DNA of 64,000 nt from Pararhizobium gei (GTDB lineage Bacteria > Pseudomonadota > Alphaproteobacteria > Rhizobiales > Rhizobiaceae), in contig NZ_CP119409.1 of the NCBI RefSeq assembly GCF_029223885.1, positions 956,001-1,020,000 of the forward strand, read 5' to 3'. The position numbers were made by a program, and so were the translations under genes. Positions 16,410 through 53,125 of this stretch are shown in pieces. Position 1 is the first letter of the stretch; every line of letters starts with the position of its first letter. The notes beneath the pieces are model-generated. The model saw only the letters and a program-made list of their open reading frames with translations, searched no databases and was not told the origin of the DNA.

Positions 16410-17435
16410 TCAACTCGCCCGCGGAGATACCCAGTCGTGCCAATCCTGTTCGCTGCCATGGAAAACGTTCAGGTCGATCTTTCCTTCGACACCCTGGGAA
16501 AGACCCGAACCGGAATATTGCCAGAACAGCCATTTGCGCCCGGGATAAACAGTGGAGGGATGGGCTGCAACCGCACGCAACCAGAACGGATGGCTCTTGA
16601 ATTCCCCGGCCAGATTGTCGCGGTAGAAATCAGGGGCCGTATAGATCACTGGGCGCTTGCCGTAGTGACGCTCCAGCTTGTCCATGAAGACCTGCATCTT
16701 TTCCAGCACCTTGGCGCGCGAAAGACGAAACCGGCAGCTTGACTCGCCATTATATTCCACATCGATCACCGGCGGCAGCGCATCGGGATCGCGTGGGACA
16801 TTGCGGATAAACCAGTCCGCCTGCTCGCCAGCGGTGCGGCACCAGTAGAAAAAGTGGTAGGCGCCCCGCTTCACACCGGCCTTCTTGGCACGGTTCCAGT
16901 TCTTCATGAACATCGGGTCAAGGTGGTCGCCGCCATCCGTTGCCTTGATATAGGCGAAATTTGCTCCCTGCGTTCTCAGCCGCGGCCAGTCGATCTCGCC
17001 TTGCCAACGCGAGATATCCACCCCGTGCACGGCATGCCTGCGCGGTGAGGCTTTGCCGAAATTGATCGGCTTGGCGTCGCGGAACTGGTGGCTGTAGATC
17101 CGCGACCGCTGACCCGGCGCCAAATCGATCGCCGGATTGTCAGGCATGACCGCTGCGACCGGTCGCTCCATCGGCACGGACATGCCCTCCGTCCGGTCCA
17201 GCGTCTCGAAGACCTGGGTCTGCGTCGCCTGTCCCGCCCAGGCGAGTTGTTCCGGATGCGAAGCGTTCTGCTCCGGGACCTGCCCGACATCGGCGCTGGG
17301 CACAGGCATCTTGACCGAACTGGTGGTTTCTTTCGATGGCAATCCTGCCGTAAGGCTGTCAGGGCCGGCGTTTGAGGCACAGCCGGATAGACCGAGGCCA
17401 AGGAGAAATATCGCTGGAACAACCGACAAACGCAT
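16410..17435 (-). CDS. GH25-family lysozyme-like lipoprotein
   Basis: From the ATG at 17435 the protein has 341 residues, with a lipoprotein signal (MRLSVVPAIFLLGLGLSGC), a disordered stretch of about 100 residues and a GH25 domain at about residues 130-335. Catalytic acidic residues of the family are visible in HGVDISRWQGEIDW and PPVIDVEYNG, with YIKATDGG, GAYHFFYWC and FWQYSGSG also matching. GH25 enzymes cleave the beta-1,4 muramyl bond of peptidoglycan. Membrane anchoring suggests a role in wall remodelling rather than phage lysis. The ribosome site is weak, and an ATG at 17459 is an alternative start. Confidence 0.85.
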   Translation of the reverse strand: MRLSVVPAIFLLGLGLSGCASNAGPDSLTAGLPSKETTSSVKMPVPSADVGQVPEQNASHPEQLAWAGQATQTQVFETLDRTEGMSVPMERPVAAVMPDNPAIDLAPGQRSRIYSHQFRDAKPINFGKASPRRHAVHGVDISRWQGEIDWPRLRTQGANFAYIKATDGGDHLDPMFMKNWNRAKKAGVKRGAYHFFYWCRTAGEQADWFIRNVPRDPDALPPVIDVEYNGESSCRFRLSRAKVLEKMQVFMDKLERHYGKRPVIYTAPDFYRDNLAGEFKSHPFWLRAVAAHPSTVYPGRKWLFWQYSGSGLSQGVEGKIDLNVFHGSEQDWHDWVSPRAS

Positions 17436-17617
17436 AGGAACCCGCACGCAAAACAGCATTCGACAGCACCAGCGCCGTCGATGAACTATGATTGCTAACG
17501 GAAAATTACCAAGAAAGACTGAATCCGCCTGATTCGGCGCAACGATATGGAGTTTCAGGGTCCGGCAACAATCGGGGCGAGGAGAGGCCTCATGGTGGCA
17601 CAAAACGCAAGCCTGAA

Positions 17618-17785
17618 ACAAAAAAGCCTGCCGCGGGAGGAGGTGCGGCAGGCTTCTAATAGAACCGAACGGCAACTGGGAGGAGGAGTGTTGCCATTCC
17701 GCAGGTGCCCTCTGGGAGGAGGAGTAAGGACACTTGCAAATCGAAGCTCTGCGGGAGGAGGTGCATCACTTCGATGAGTTCAATA
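17618..17785 (-). ncRNA. Tandem CCUCCUCCC small RNA ('cuckoo'/alpha-r14-like), four hairpins
   Basis: Read on the minus strand, four successive hairpins each show CCTCCTCCC in the loop; on the plus strand the 9-mer GGGAGGAGG lies at 17753-17761, 17714-17722, 17678-17686 and 17635-17643. Stems: TCGAAG/CTTCGA (17741-17774); an 11-position stem with one mismatch and one G-U (17701-17737); GGCAAC/GTTGCC (17671-17695); and an 11-bp perfect stem (17624-17655) followed by T6, an intrinsic terminator whose own loop carries the motif. CCUCCUCCC-loop RNAs are known as CcsR (cuckoo) RNAs in Rhodobacter and alpha-r14 RNAs in Rhizobiales; the motif can pair with Shine-Dalgarno sequences. Four tandem units could be one RNA or be processed to several. 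The 5' end and promoter are not resolved. Confidence 0.8.
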
Positions 17786-17936
17786 TACACGGGTTTCGCT
17801 CGAAAAGTAGGCAGAATTTCGCAGGGCAGCCATGCGCCATGCGCGTAGCGGGTGGCTTGGCTGGATATCAATCGTTTCAAGGATGTCCGGAACGAATAGC
17901 TCTGCTTTGCCTTGAGGCTGAAAAAGGATCATTGCA

Positions 17937-18440
17937 ATGAAGATCGAAACACTTGCCCTCGGACCGCGGGACTGGGTGCCGAACAATCCGACGCTGCCGG
18001 TGCTGATTTACCGTCAGGCAGTCACCGATGCCATGGACGTTGCGGCGGCGTTCGAGCAGCGTTTTCACGACAATGGCTGGGTCGATTGCTGGCGCAACGG
18101 CATCTTTTCCTACCAGCATTATCATACACAGGCACACGAAGTGCTTGGCGTTGCCCTCGGGCACGCCCGGCTTGTCATTGGCGGGCCGGGCGGCTGCGAG
18201 ATTGTCCTCGCCTCCGGTGACTGCATCGTCCTGCCGGCAGGCACCGGGCACTGCAGGATGGAAGCGTCAGGTGACTTTCTGGTCATCGGTGCCTATCCCC
18301 CAAACCAGCATGCCGATATCAACACCCAGGCGCCGAGCGCGCAAGACCTTGAGCGGATGCTGAATGTTCCCTTGCCATCGGCCGATCCGGTAGCTGGAGA
18401 AGGCGGCCCGCTCATGACTGCGTGGAGATCTGGGAAATAG
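17937..18440 (+). CDS. Cupin-domain protein (YjlB-like)
   Basis: A 167-residue single-domain cupin. The first cupin motif is recognisable as YQHYHTQAHEVLGVALG and the second as GDCIVLPAGTGHCRMEASGDF; their His/Glu residues would bind a metal. Length and the LPVLIYRQA opening match the YjlB group, whose function is unknown. It starts at an ATG preceded by AAAGGATCATTGCA. It lies divergent from the small RNA and converges on the DUF4112 gene with a gap of only 7 nt. Confidence 0.8.
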   Translation: MKIETLALGPRDWVPNNPTLPVLIYRQAVTDAMDVAAAFEQRFHDNGWVDCWRNGIFSYQHYHTQAHEVLGVALGHARLVIGGPGGCEIVLASGDCIVLPAGTGHCRMEASGDFLVIGAYPPNQHADINTQAPSAQDLERMLNVPLPSADPVAGEGGPLMTAWRSGK

Positions 18441-40578: not shown

Positions 40579-40877
40579 TGTTTGTCTCCGGTTGGTGAAA
40601 CGAAAAAACAGCTGGAGAGCTATTCTGTTCCATGGAAAGACAAACTTTAAACCGCCGGCTCGTGCGCAACCGCTGGAACCATTAGGCGAGATTCCAATTG
40701 TTTCGTCAGGATGCAGGTCATGTCAAGCCGACCTGACGGAGATGGTGAACATGGCGGTTTTTCGGCTTTCTCGTCATGGCCAACGAAACGGCAGTCGAGC
40801 ACCCGACCTGTCTGGCCTGCATCCGCTCTCCGAGCTATTGTTCATTCCGATATCCGCAACCTCTGTGTGGAGTGGCA

Positions 40878-47318: not shown

Positions 47319-48614
47319 TCAGACGATACCGCCGCCGCCGCTTTTCGAAGCCGGGCGTTCGCCGGAGACCTTGGCGCGGTAGCCGCTGGCGCGGTAGGCC
47401 GCAACCGGCGAAATCGCGCCGCCGGCCTCGTAGCGCGACATGGCGAGAATAGGCTCGACATGGATGCGGAACGCGGCTTTCAGCGTTTCCGTCGCCATTA
47501 GCGCGTCGTTGCCGTCCTGATAGGCTTCGAGCGCTTTGCGATCGACGAGCAGCGCCTGCGCATAGGCTCGGCTGACTTCGGTCGCGCTGTTCATCAGGCT
47601 CTCGATCGGGTCGGTGACATTGTGGCTCTGGTCGAGCATGTGCATCGGCGCAAAGCCTTCCGCGGCGCGCGTTTCCGCATCCACCAGTTCGTTGAAAACG
47701 AGAAACAGGCGGTAAGGATCGATCGACCCCGTATCCAGATCGTCGTCGCCATACTTCGAATCATTGAAATGGAAGCCGCCAAGCTTCTTGAACTGGATCA
47801 GCCGCGCGACGATCATCTCGATATTGACGTTCGGCGCATGATGGCCGAGATCGACGAGGCAATACGCCTTAGGGCCGAGTTCCTGGGCAATTAGATAGTT
47901 GGTGCCCCAATCCTGAACGACGGTCGAGTAGAAGGCCGGCTCGAACATTTTGTGCTCGGAGAAAATCTTCCAGTCGTCCGGCAGTCCCTTGTAGATCGCC
48001 TTCATCGCATCGAGGTAACGCTCGAAGCTTTTGGTGAAATTGCTCTGGCCGGGAAAGTTGGAGCCGTCGCCGATCCAGACGGTGAGGGCTTTCGAGCCCA
48101 GCGCCTTGCCGATCTCGATACATTCGAGATTGTGATCGACCGCCTGTTGCCGGGTTGCCGAGTCGGCGTGGCTGAGCGAGCCGAATTTATAGGAATGCGC
48201 CTGGTCGGGCGCGTCGGAGAAGGTGTTGGAGTTCATCGCGTCGAAGCCGAGGCCGAGTGCGTTGCCCTTCTCCTTTAATTCCGAGAGGTTATCCACCTTG
48301 TCCCAGGGAATATGCAGCGAAACCGTCGGCGTCGCCTTGGTCAATTGCTGGATGACCGAGCAATCCTCGATCTTGTCGTAGATATTGCGCGGTTCGCCGG
48401 TACCAGGAAAACGGGCAAAGCGCGTTCCGCCGGTGCCCACGCCCCAGGAGGGAACGGCAACGCCGTAGGCTGAGACTTTCGCTTTTACGCTGTCAATATC
48501 GATGCCGCGACGGGCAAGCTGTGTACCAAGGTGATCGTAGTCCGCCTTGATGTCGGCGATGCGCGCCTCGTTGTCCCGGGCAATGATGTCGGGCTCGATG
48601 ATGAAGTCGCTCAT
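47319..48614 (-). CDS. rhaI: L-rhamnose isomerase
   Basis: From the ATG at 48614 (GGGGAGGAAACC upstream) the enzyme has 431 residues, matching the Pseudomonas-type L-rhamnose isomerase used by rhizobia. Conserved stretches: VPSWGVGTGGTRFARF, SLHIPWDK, KIFSEHKMFEPAFYSTVVQDWG (metal-site Glu region), CLVDLGHHAPNVNIE and GGFHFNDSKYGDDDLDTGSIDPYRLF. It interconverts L-rhamnose and L-rhamnulose in the cytoplasm, the first intracellular step after RhaU. It lies downstream of rhaD on the same strand, but a 260-nt gap with an antisense Pmp3 gene intervenes, and it ends at an intrinsic terminator. Confidence 0.95.
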   Translation of the reverse strand: MSDFIIEPDIIARDNEARIADIKADYDHLGTQLARRGIDIDSVKAKVSAYGVAVPSWGVGTGGTRFARFPGTGEPRNIYDKIEDCSVIQQLTKATPTVSLHIPWDKVDNLSELKEKGNALGLGFDAMNSNTFSDAPDQAHSYKFGSLSHADSATRQQAVDHNLECIEIGKALGSKALTVWIGDGSNFPGQSNFTKSFERYLDAMKAIYKGLPDDWKIFSEHKMFEPAFYSTVVQDWGTNYLIAQELGPKAYCLVDLGHHAPNVNIEMIVARLIQFKKLGGFHFNDSKYGDDDLDTGSIDPYRLFLVFNELVDAETRAAEGFAPMHMLDQSHNVTDPIESLMNSATEVSRAYAQALLVDRKALEAYQDGNDALMATETLKAAFRIHVEPILAMSRYEAGGAISPVAAYRASGYRAKVSGERPASKSGGGGIV

Positions 48615-48693
48615 GGTTTCCTCCCCAGCATTTGAACTTTTTCTTGCTCGTCGCGTTCCACGTCTCGATTGTTGAACCCCCTTGGAGGCCATC

Positions 48694-48874: not shown

Positions 48875-50974
48875 TCAGCGTGTAAAGGATTGTGCATTGC
48901 CCGCATCGACATTGATGATGTTGCCGGTGGATTTGGCCGACATGTCGGATGCCAGGAAATAGATCGCTTCGGCAATGTCTTCCGGAAAGACGCTGAGCTT
49001 GAGCATGGAGCGCTCGCGATACATCGCTTCCAGCCCCTCCATGTCCGTCTTGTAGACGGCAGCGCGCTGTTCCTTCCATTCGCCGGTCCAGATCTTCGAC
49101 CCACGCAGCACTGCATCCGGGTTTACGACGTTGACCCGGATCTGCGCGGATGCGCCTTCCAGCGCCAGGCACCGGGCAAGATGGATTTCAGCGGCCTTGG
49201 CCGTGCAATAGGCAGATGCGCCGGGGGATGCGGCAAGACCGTTCTTGGAAGCGACGAAAACGACATTGCCGCCGGCCTTCTGGTTGCGGAAAATCCGGAA
49301 CGCTTCGCGCGAGACAAGGAAATACCCGGTCGCCAGAATGTCCAGGTTCTTGTTCCACAGCGCCAACGTCGTGTCTTCGATCGCCGCGGATGAGGCTAGG
49401 CCTGCATTGGAAACGAGAATGTCGAGGCCCCCGAATTCCAGCAGCGCGTCGGCAAAACTCGTCTGCACGGCGACCTCATCCGTGACATTCATGGTGACGG
49501 CGCGGACGAAGTCCTTGCCGTAACGGCCGCCGAGTTCGCTCAGGGCCGAGGCAAGCGCCGTCTCGTCGATATCGGCGAGCACAACGCAGGCGCCTTCCTG
49601 CATCAGCCGGTTGGCTGTCGCCTTGCCGATGCCGCCGGCGCCGCCGGTGACAAGCGCAATCTTGCCGGCCAGCATCTTCGGCTTGGGCATGCGCTGCAGC
49701 TTGGCTTCCTCAAGCAACCAGTATTCGATATCGAACGCTTCCTGTTCCGGAAGGCCGACATAGGTGGAGACGCCGGACGCGCCGCGCATGACGTTGATGG
49801 CATTGACGTAGAATTCGCCGGAGATCCGGGCCGTCGCCTTGTCCTTGGCAAAGGTGATCATGCCGACGCCGGGGATTAGGTAGACGACGGCATTCGGATC
49901 GCGCATCGCCGGGCTATTATAACGCTTGCAGCGCTCGTAATAGGCGGCGTAACCGGCGCGGTACTCGGCAATCGCCGCTTCGAGGCCGGCAAGCGTCCTG
50001 TCGATATCCGGATTGGCCGGGTCGAAATCGATCACCAGCGGGCAGATCTTGGTGCGCAGGAAATGGTCCGGGCAGGATGTGCCGAGGGCGGCCAACGGCG
50101 CAAGGTTCTTCGAGGTGACGAAATCAAGCACGGCCTGACTGTCGTCGAAATGGCCAAGCTTGCGTTCGTCGACACTGATCATGCCACGGATGACCGGCAT
50201 CAGTTTCTGCGCCACGGCGCGGCGTTCTTGAGCTGGCAGGACCGGCTTCACCGCGCCGCCGAAGGCCGGCGCCATATTGGTCGTCTCGAACCATGCAATC
50301 GCCTTGTTGATGATCTCGATCGTCGTCTCGTAGGCTTCCTTGGCCGTGTCGCCCCAGGTGAACAGGCCATGGCTTTCCAGGATCAGCCCGCGTGCGCCAG
50401 GGTTTTCGGCACAGAATTTCGACAGCCAGAGGCCCAGTTCAAAGCCGGGACGCTTCCAGGGCAGCCAGCCGATATCGTCGCCGAAGATCTGCTGGGTCAG
50501 CTCGCGGCTGTTCTTGGACGCGGCAATGGCGATGATTGCGTCGGGGTGCATGTGGTCGACATGTTTCTTCGGCACATAGGCGTGCAGCGGCGTGTCGATC
50601 GAGGCTGCGCGCGGATTGAGGTTGAAGGTGCAGTGCGGCAGGTAGCCGACCATTTCGTCTTCATGCTCGAGGCCACGGTAAAGACCCTTCAGCGCTTCCA
50701 GCTTCTCCATGTACAGCGTCGAGAAGCCGTCCATCTTGATGGTGCCGACGTCGCCGCCCGAACCCTTGACCCAGAGAACCTCGACCGTACCACCGCCGAG
50801 CGGATCCTTTTCCATGACTTTGGCGGAGGTATTGCCACCGCCGTAATTGGTGATGCGCTTGTCGGAGCCAAGCAGGTTGGAGCGGTAAAGCAGCCGCTCG
50901 GGCTCGCTCATGCCGGCTGCCTTGGCATCGTCCCAGAGATTGGCAAGGCGCAAGCCTTGTTGCTTGTCGAGCAT
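48875..50974 (-). CDS. rhaD: Bifunctional rhamnulose-1-phosphate aldolase / short-chain dehydrogenase
   Basis: The ATG at 50974 follows GGGAGG at 8 nt, better than the ATG 6 nt upstream; the product has 699 residues. Residues about 1-420 are a class II aldolase/adducin domain (YGGGNTSAKV, HVDHMHPDA with zinc His, LILESHGLFTWGD). Residues about 430-699 are an SDR domain (VTGGAGGIG cofactor loop, YCTAKAA catalytic Tyr-Lys). This fused enzyme splits rhamnulose-1-phosphate to dihydroxyacetone phosphate and L-lactaldehyde and probably oxidises or reduces the aldehyde. It starts the minus-strand rhaD-rhaI unit and shares a regulatory gap with rhaR. Confidence 0.95.
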   Translation of the reverse strand: MLDKQQGLRLANLWDDAKAAGMSEPERLLYRSNLLGSDKRITNYGGGNTSAKVMEKDPLGGGTVEVLWVKGSGGDVGTIKMDGFSTLYMEKLEALKGLYRGLEHEDEMVGYLPHCTFNLNPRAASIDTPLHAYVPKKHVDHMHPDAIIAIAASKNSRELTQQIFGDDIGWLPWKRPGFELGLWLSKFCAENPGARGLILESHGLFTWGDTAKEAYETTIEIINKAIAWFETTNMAPAFGGAVKPVLPAQERRAVAQKLMPVIRGMISVDERKLGHFDDSQAVLDFVTSKNLAPLAALGTSCPDHFLRTKICPLVIDFDPANPDIDRTLAGLEAAIAEYRAGYAAYYERCKRYNSPAMRDPNAVVYLIPGVGMITFAKDKATARISGEFYVNAINVMRGASGVSTYVGLPEQEAFDIEYWLLEEAKLQRMPKPKMLAGKIALVTGGAGGIGKATANRLMQEGACVVLADIDETALASALSELGGRYGKDFVRAVTMNVTDEVAVQTSFADALLEFGGLDILVSNAGLASSAAIEDTTLALWNKNLDILATGYFLVSREAFRIFRNQKAGGNVVFVASKNGLAASPGASAYCTAKAAEIHLARCLALEGASAQIRVNVVNPDAVLRGSKIWTGEWKEQRAAVYKTDMEGLEAMYRERSMLKLSVFPEDIAEAIYFLASDMSAKSTGNIINVDAGNAQSFTR

Positions 50975-51071
50975 CTGCATTTCCTCCCGGTCAATTCCGC
51001 GCCGGCCTGCTGAGATTCCAGGGCAAAGACGCTTTCGTTGCCGCCAGATCACATAAAATCCGTGCCTGTGT

Positions 51072-52118: not shown

Positions 52119-52135
52119 AACGGGAGGAGAATGTC

Positions 52136-53125
52136 ATGAAGATTTTGAAGGCTCTGATGGTCACGACGGCGGTTTCGCTGGCGCTGATGGCAGGCACGGC
52201 AAACGCTGCCGACAAGAAGATCGCGCTCGTCGTCAAGGCGCTCGGCATCGGCTTCTTTGAGGCCGCCAACAAGGGCGCGCAGGAAGCCGCCAAGGAACTC
52301 GGCGATGTCGAGATCATCTATACCGGCCCGACAACAACGACGGCTGAAGGCCAGATCGAAGTCATCAATTCGCTGATCGCCCAGAAGGTCGATGCGATTG
52401 CTGTTTCCGCCAACGACACGGACGCGCTCGTTCCGGCCCTGAAGAAGGCGATGGACCGCGGCATCAAGGTTATCTCCTGGGATTCGGGCGTCGCCAAGGA
52501 AGGCCGCTCGATGCATCTGAACCCGTCTTCCAGCCCGCTGATCGGCAACATGATTATCAAGCTGGCTGCAGACCAGCTGCCGGAAGGCGGCGACGTTGCT
52601 GTTCTCTCCGCAACGGCGACATCCACGAACCAGAATGTCTGGATCGAGGAAATGAAGAAGGTGCTGCCAAACTATAAGGGCATCAACGTCGTTGCCACCG
52701 TTTACGGCGATGACCTTGCCGACAAGTCCTATCGCGAAACGCAAGGCCTCATCCAGTCCTACCCGAACCTGAAGGCGATCATCGCACCGACCTCTGTCGG
52801 CATCGTTGCCGCAGCGCAGGCCGTCACGGATGCCGGAAAGACAGGGCAGATCAACGTCACCGGTCTCGGCCTTCCCTCCGAAATGGCAGGCCATGTGAAG
52901 TCCGGCGCGTCAAAATCCTTCGCGATCTGGAACCCGATCGACCTCGGCTATTCCGCCACCATGATCGCCTATGACCTGATCGGCGGCGCGGAAGCAAAGC
53001 CCGGCGCCGAGCTGAAGATGGGCCGCATGGGCTCCGTCAAGCTTGATGACAACAACGAAGGCGCGATGGCCGACCCGTTCGTCTACGACGCTTCGAACGT
53101 CGAAGAGTTCGCCAAGATCTTCTGA
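52136..53125 (+). CDS. rhaS: Rhamnose ABC transporter, substrate-binding protein
   Basis: A 329-residue periplasmic binding protein of the ribose/galactose type, with signal peptide MKILKALMVTTAVSLALMAGTANA. The mature part has two Rossmann lobes (KIALVVKALGIGFFEAANKGAQEAAKELG, TGPTTTTAEGQIEVINSLIAQKVDAIAVS, AVLSATATSTNQNVWIEEMKK, APTSVGIVAAAQAV). It delivers L-rhamnose to RhaPQ. The start has an extremely strong GGGAGGAG ribosome site just after a hairpin. It is separated from the ATPase gene by a RIME-like palindromic element, which could favour its higher expression. Confidence 0.94.
   Translation: MKILKALMVTTAVSLALMAGTANAADKKIALVVKALGIGFFEAANKGAQEAAKELGDVEIIYTGPTTTTAEGQIEVINSLIAQKVDAIAVSANDTDALVPALKKAMDRGIKVISWDSGVAKEGRSMHLNPSSSPLIGNMIIKLAADQLPEGGDVAVLSATATSTNQNVWIEEMKKVLPNYKGINVVATVYGDDLADKSYRETQGLIQSYPNLKAIIAPTSVGIVAAAQAVTDAGKTGQINVTGLGLPSEMAGHVKSGASKSFAIWNPIDLGYSATMIAYDLIGGAEAKPGAELKMGRMGSVKLDDNNEGAMADPFVYDASNVEEFAKIF

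Follow-up and report, generated by a model that had tools for sequence, protein, structure and literature searches.

The window analysed here, a 64 kb stretch of DNA, contains at 17619-17776 on the minus strand a predicted small RNA of about 158-160 nt with four anti-Shine-Dalgarno hairpins, delineated from its alignment to the S. meliloti RNA SmelA099 and its match to the Rfam family RF02344. On its downstream side lies a gene for a GH25 lysozyme-type protein (16413-17435, minus strand; Pfam PF01183) and on the other side a divergent gene for a cupin-like protein (17937-18440, plus strand; a weak Cupin_2 match just below the Pfam cut-off), both of which we place outside the system. Among the listed open reading frames of at least 80 amino acids, the only one that overlaps the region is a TTG-started minus-strand frame (16410-17675), an upstream extension of the GH25 gene, which has a plausible ATG at 17435.

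The 9-mer GGGAGGAGG occurs exactly four times in the window, always on the plus strand and with spacings of 43, 36 and 39, in agreement with the four copies spaced 36-43 nt that a first-pass annotation had noticed; the mean expected by chance is 0.52, and four copies were reached in none of 100 shuffles. Read on the minus strand, the copies are CCUCCUCCC. The predicted fold of the minus-strand RNA (-69.9 kcal/mol, z -6.96, with no equally stable sequence among 200 shuffles) consists of four successive hairpins with one motif copy per loop, as had been proposed, and every base of all four copies has a computed unpaired probability of at least 0.98. Hairpin 1, the 5'-most (17740-17775, minus strand, as are the others), carries the copy at 17753-17761, hairpin 2 (17701-17737) the copy at 17714-17722, hairpin 3 (17667-17699) the copy at 17678-17686 and hairpin 4 with its T6 (17620-17656) the copy at 17635-17643. 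In addition to the fold, these assignments draw on pairing in 92 relatives (hairpin 1), on compensatory changes (hairpins 2 and 3) and on sequence and pairing (hairpin 4). Hairpin 4 is GC-rich and is followed by T6 at 17625-17620, so that it is a probable intrinsic terminator, again as first suggested. A simple terminator scan did not list it, probably because the scan permits loops of 3-8 nt and the predicted loop here has 10 nt. Very probably, the locus is a minus-strand gene for a small RNA in which each of the four loops can pair with ribosome-binding sites.

Lying on the same strand as the GH25 gene and about 180 nt upstream of its start, the hairpins might instead act in cis on that gene, as its leader or attenuator. 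The terminator with T6 speaks against this, and so does the gene context in relatives. Of the other 25 genomes of the genus, 18 have a counterpart of the window copy and its promoter that is 87-91% identical over approximately 235-242 nt, and a search of about 1.5 kb around these 18 close copies gave no homologue of GH25 or of the cupin. The RNA unit thus occurs in differing gene contexts, and fragmented microsynteny has been reported for this RNA family (PMC3927594). On the absence of GH25 beside the close copies we reject the leader reading, which we consider scarcely credible.

Family membership, predicted transcript ends and the upstream box

A covariance-model search, which the first-pass annotation had recommended as a check of its alpha-r14 assignment, matched the Rfam ar14 model (RF02344) to minus-strand positions 17619-17743; the score of 105.4 bits exceeds the cut-off of 58.8. 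The match spans hairpins 2-4 and leaves hairpin 1 outside except for its last few bases. In the same window, 40711-40818 on the plus strand matches another rhizobial small RNA, Atu_At1 (RF02496), with 92.6 bits against a cut-off of 60. By BLAST, the locus matches positions 1328169-1328381 (minus strand) of the S. meliloti 1021 megaplasmid pSymA with 79.7% identity over 92% of the query. This region coincides with SmelA099 (smrA6), a 160-nt RNA at 1328175-1328334 on the minus strand known from deep sequencing (PMC2873474; table in PMC7143759), whose ends enclose all four corresponding hairpins, and promoter and hairpins align. Already in 2011, three hairpin loops were described for RFMSmelA075 and four for RFMSmelA099, with similar loop motifs CCUCCUCCC (PMC3927594). 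The window RNA likewise has four CCUCCUCCC loops besides its homology to SmelA099. Taken together, the Rfam match, the homology to SmelA099 and the published four-hairpin description place the window RNA, at the sequence level, in the SmelA099 branch; its four-unit form is the already described type and no special local expansion.

The start at about 17776 and the end at about 17619 were taken from the alignment to SmelA099, the first base of which is the foot of hairpin 1; a generic sigma-70 promoter scan had given no promoter at the locus, no clear -35 element was recognised, and the 5' end was therefore placed by homology. These ends agree within a few bases with the interval 17618..17785 that was initially assigned to the hairpins. 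Relative to the 5' end of SmelA099, the sequence GTATAT at -12 to -7 (17783-17788, minus strand) is a probable -10 element, partly conserved upstream in relatives.

Farther upstream of the start, at about -60 to -46 (17822-17836, minus strand), is a box resembling the sites of LsrB and of VtlR, which we take to be the Brucella counterpart of LsrB. The box has three mismatches to the published VtlR motif, defined in Brucella and used here as quoted in PMC12595884. Among 92 diverse four-hairpin loci, 84 have a box within four mismatches of this motif, compared with 0 of 92 in the reversed and 3 of 92 in the shuffled control, and in 86 of the 92 the best match starts in the same 4-nt upstream interval. 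The LsrB site of NfeR1, a related three-hairpin RNA, is reported at -72 to -60 (PMC10746234). In the present genome, genes of the LysR and ArsR types are grouped with an AbcR-type RNA pair, as described around lsrB in S. meliloti (PMC8844928), and the candidate lsrB gene was identified by this arrangement. Control of the window RNA by LsrB is likely, because the upstream box is conserved and the LysR-type, AbcR-type and ArsR-type elements are grouped in this way.

Conservation and distribution of the hairpins

The first-pass annotation had staked its reading on stems conserved by compensatory change in relatives, and the stems are indeed so conserved. For the structure alignment, 155 four-unit arrays with enough flanking sequence (136 distinct) were thinned by similarity to 92. 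Compensatory, that is double-sided, changes occur in 28 of the 39 stem pairs, and standard pairs fill 97.3% of the cells, a proportion that falls to 35-47% when partners are slid by 1-3 columns. Neither the pairing value nor the double-sided value was matched in any of 500 shuffles, which ignore relatedness and are judged against a structure derived from the same alignment. Compensatory changes occur at all 8 consensus pairs of hairpin 2 and at all 10 of hairpin 3, and hairpin 4 is paired in 99.7% of cells. The two helices of hairpin 1 are paired in 98.3% and 99.3% of cells, and this hairpin hardly varies, which is why it has only 9 double-sided cells; as judged from the alignment, its support is more from conservation than from covariation, which is thin.

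Sequences fitting the four-hairpin branch pattern were found at 62 distinct places in 25 of 26 genus genomes, the present one included; G009 was the only one of the 26 scanned to give no match. A scan of named genomes returned at least 120 stretches, with Rhizobium, Ensifer, Sinorhizobium, Shinella, Neorhizobium and Pararhizobium among them. Four units were present in 161 of the 187 arrays of three or more units among the matches listed, a proportion that is no census, since the patterns mainly favour the four-hairpin branch and duplicates are present. Longer arrays were also seen. Two five-motif arrays (L088 in G007, and L238), each with one 63-nt gap, apparently arose by partial duplication inside a four-hairpin RNA. 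Among the matches listed, six arrays (L147, L153, L161, L189, L197 and L211; four Loktanella records, one Salipiger and one uncultured Rhodobacteraceae) contain 7-15 anti-Shine-Dalgarno motifs and thereby exceed the 2-4 hairpins of the cuckoo family.

Three places in the present genome match the ar14 model above the cut-off, and all three belong to the four-hairpin branch; one of them (L003) has a degraded third loop. Two weaker matches, of 46.4 and 40.9 bits, adjoin two DUF1127 genes outside the window and form an eroded tandem pair of the NfeR1 type (L004 and L005; C1:2229746-2230078). When this pair is aligned with five intact ones, all six of its loop motifs prove to be altered. NfeR1-type tandem pairs also stand beside DUF1127-like open reading frames in six relatives scanned (L014, L015, L017, L023, L028 and L033). 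Typed by spacing (matches 260-310 nt apart), the pair has at least one copy over the cut-off in all 24 other genus genomes compared and both copies in 23, G024 having one; in 21 of the 24 (all but G015, G017 and G024) the first copy was also inspected as sequence. It is conceivable, though we hold it with more doubt than belief, that the three-hairpin pair was lost by loop erosion and that the three four-hairpin loci with LsrB boxes took over anti-Shine-Dalgarno control of uptake genes. If this is true, one anti-Shine-Dalgarno RNA has been naturally replaced by a longer paralogue. The eroded pair is a natural case in which to test how fully such paralogues can substitute for each other.

DUF1127 genes bear on a further reading, in which the window RNA would be of the CcsR type and would be processed along with a DUF1127 protein, as at the CIN1 locus. 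The CcsR RNAs (CcsR1-4) of Rhodobacter sphaeroides have the same anti-Shine-Dalgarno loop motif. They are described as sharing a transcript with a DUF1127 gene and arising from a cluster by processing (PMC10253847). The six DUF1127 matches of the present genome all lie away from its three four-hairpin loci, and no DUF1127-like open reading frame turned up when about 1.5 kb on each side of L001, L002 and L003 was scanned for signatures. The likeness to CcsR put forward by the first-pass annotation thus stands for the loop motif and fails for the CIN1 arrangement, the association with a neighbouring DUF1127 gene being largely refuted by gene context, and we consider the CcsR-type reading highly improbable. 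Elsewhere in the same order, a locus in G034 (L040, 1301-1924) has nine motif-like copies 3' of a DUF1127-type small open reading frame and resembles the CIN1 locus.

Candidate targets and proposed mode of action

At a single place in the genome, the full 9-nt complement of the loop motif stands 3-10 nt ahead of an ATG, and two more listed sites are 2 nt ahead of one. Start sites open to perfect 9-nt pairing are therefore rare, which is why we searched for targets with the 7-mer GGGAGGA. This 7-mer was found 4-12 nt before an ATG at 101 places, against 8 for the reversed pattern. The comparison class AAGGAGA was found at 161 places, against 10 for its reverse; since it is enriched as well, enrichment before ATG is a general property of such sites.

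The two classes differ in the genes that they precede. Among proteins of at least 200 codons, a limit chosen once the control frames had been seen to be shorter, solute-binding protein families account for 18 of 51 in the GGGAGGA class (L111, L117, L123, L129, L303, L312, L318, L321, L322, L327, L330, L332, L333, L339, L345, L347, L351 and L357) and for 1 of 22 (L422) in the AAGGAGA class (one-sided Fisher p 0.004). For this comparison we fetched 100 of the 101 GGGAGGA places and 98 of the 161 AAGGAGA places, leaving aside two AAGGAGA rows in which a site already listed is paired with a second ATG. After removal of 31 and 33 places, respectively, without a 60-codon open frame and of one GGGAGGA duplicate, 68 and 65 were left. 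The E-value limits of the protein-family searches were unequal, 0.001 in some and 0.00001 in others. LacI-type regulators with a binding-protein fold (L131 and L323) were not counted as solute-binding proteins, and the NMT1-like L333 was. Family tallies for the whole sets agree, among the first 25 of 71 and the first 25 of 55 families. Several carbon-metabolic genes and sugar-type regulators also belong to the GGGAGGA class; the AAGGAGA control class includes ribosomal proteins, IF3 and chaperones, and causes other than small RNAs may account for its difference in gene function.

Three candidate sites of the GGGAGGA type lie within the window. They precede a protein with weak, under-cut-off sugar-isomerase matches (48612-48625, minus strand), an aldolase/dehydrogenase (50972-50988, minus strand) and a Peripla_BP_4 binding protein (52122-52138, plus strand). 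The documented NfeR1 target ntrB, in contrast, is not supported as a target in this genome, where its inferred start has only a short AAGGA site and no 7-nt complement. The bias of the GGGAGGA class fits silencing of nutrient uptake and provides a testable list of candidate targets. The enrichment is not creditable to the window RNA alone, because AbcR RNAs carry nearly the same seed, CUCCUCCC.

The anti-Shine-Dalgarno action suggested by the first-pass annotation gains support by analogy with the relative NfeR1, for which such a mechanism is published, with three redundant loops and seed-dependent silencing of particular mRNAs (PMC10746234). We assign a probability of roughly 0.86 to the reading that the locus encodes a trans-acting alpha-r14/cuckoo small RNA of the SmelA099 type, switched by LsrB, that blocks ribosome binding on mRNAs with GGGAGGA-type sites. 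Transcription would start at about 17776 on the minus strand, with LsrB, a LysR-type regulator, activating it from the upstream box, and hairpin 4 would end it. The unpaired CCUCCUCCC in each loop would then pair with purine-rich Shine-Dalgarno sequences and block ribosome binding on mRNAs with GGGAGGA-type sites, notably those for transporter solute-binding proteins and for some carbon-catabolic genes. The computations show the family match, the four covarying hairpins, the homology to a sequenced transcript, the upstream box and the composition of the candidate target set, and predict expression in this organism, LsrB control, silencing and targets. On this basis the window RNA would most likely silence mRNAs for uptake and catabolism by masking their Shine-Dalgarno sequences.

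The RNA could also be a general sponge, either titrating Shine-Dalgarno sequences or, in stress, vying with the anti-Shine-Dalgarno end of the 16S RNA. Its four identical loops, all predicted to be open, have near-equal duplex energies with a GGGAGGA test site (-14.6 to -14.7 kcal/mol); with a longer test site, loops 1 and 4 pair more strongly (-23.5) than loops 2 and 3 (-20.1). Seed-dependent silencing in NfeR1, directed at particular mRNAs (PMC10746234), and the functional bias of the complementary site class in the genome, which fits selective targets, make a general sponge improbable.

Comparison with known small RNAs

The window RNA resembles SmelA099 (smrA6, SMa6570) in several respects: the four CCUCCUCCC hairpins, their order, the terminator core and the aligned 5' boundary are common to both, and the upstream box is similar. 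The sequences of the middle stems differ, and SmelA099 lies on a symbiotic megaplasmid, whereas the window copy is on the largest contig of its genome. With NfeR1 and the alpha-r14 family (RF02344) it has in common the unpaired CCUCCUCCC loop in each hairpin and a terminator hairpin with a motif copy. For NfeR1, the founding member of alpha-r14, a length of 123 nt with three hairpins is given (PMC10746234), whereas the window RNA has four, the extra 5' hairpin being present and conserved; its stems and terminator are also unlike those of the three-hairpin RNAs of the genus. The present locus extends a known rhizobial riboregulator to one more strain, and the Rfam model leaves one of the four hairpins of the widespread SmelA099 branch uncovered.

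With 2-4 adjacent hairpins, a conserved loop motif and variable stems, the cuckoo family (PMC4504443) accommodates the window RNA, and no difference between the two was found. Anti-Shine-Dalgarno loops are also reported for RS0680a of R. sphaeroides (PMC3927594); from CcsR1-4 the window locus differs in having no DUF1127 gene nearby. AbcR1 and AbcR2 (alpha-r15) have an 8-nt seed, CUCCUCCC, nearly the same as that of the window RNA, and silence transporter mRNAs, but are described with a different architecture and two distinct seeds (PMC8844928). They interact with Hfq (PMC8844928), whereas NfeR1 is reported as Hfq-independent (PMC10746234).
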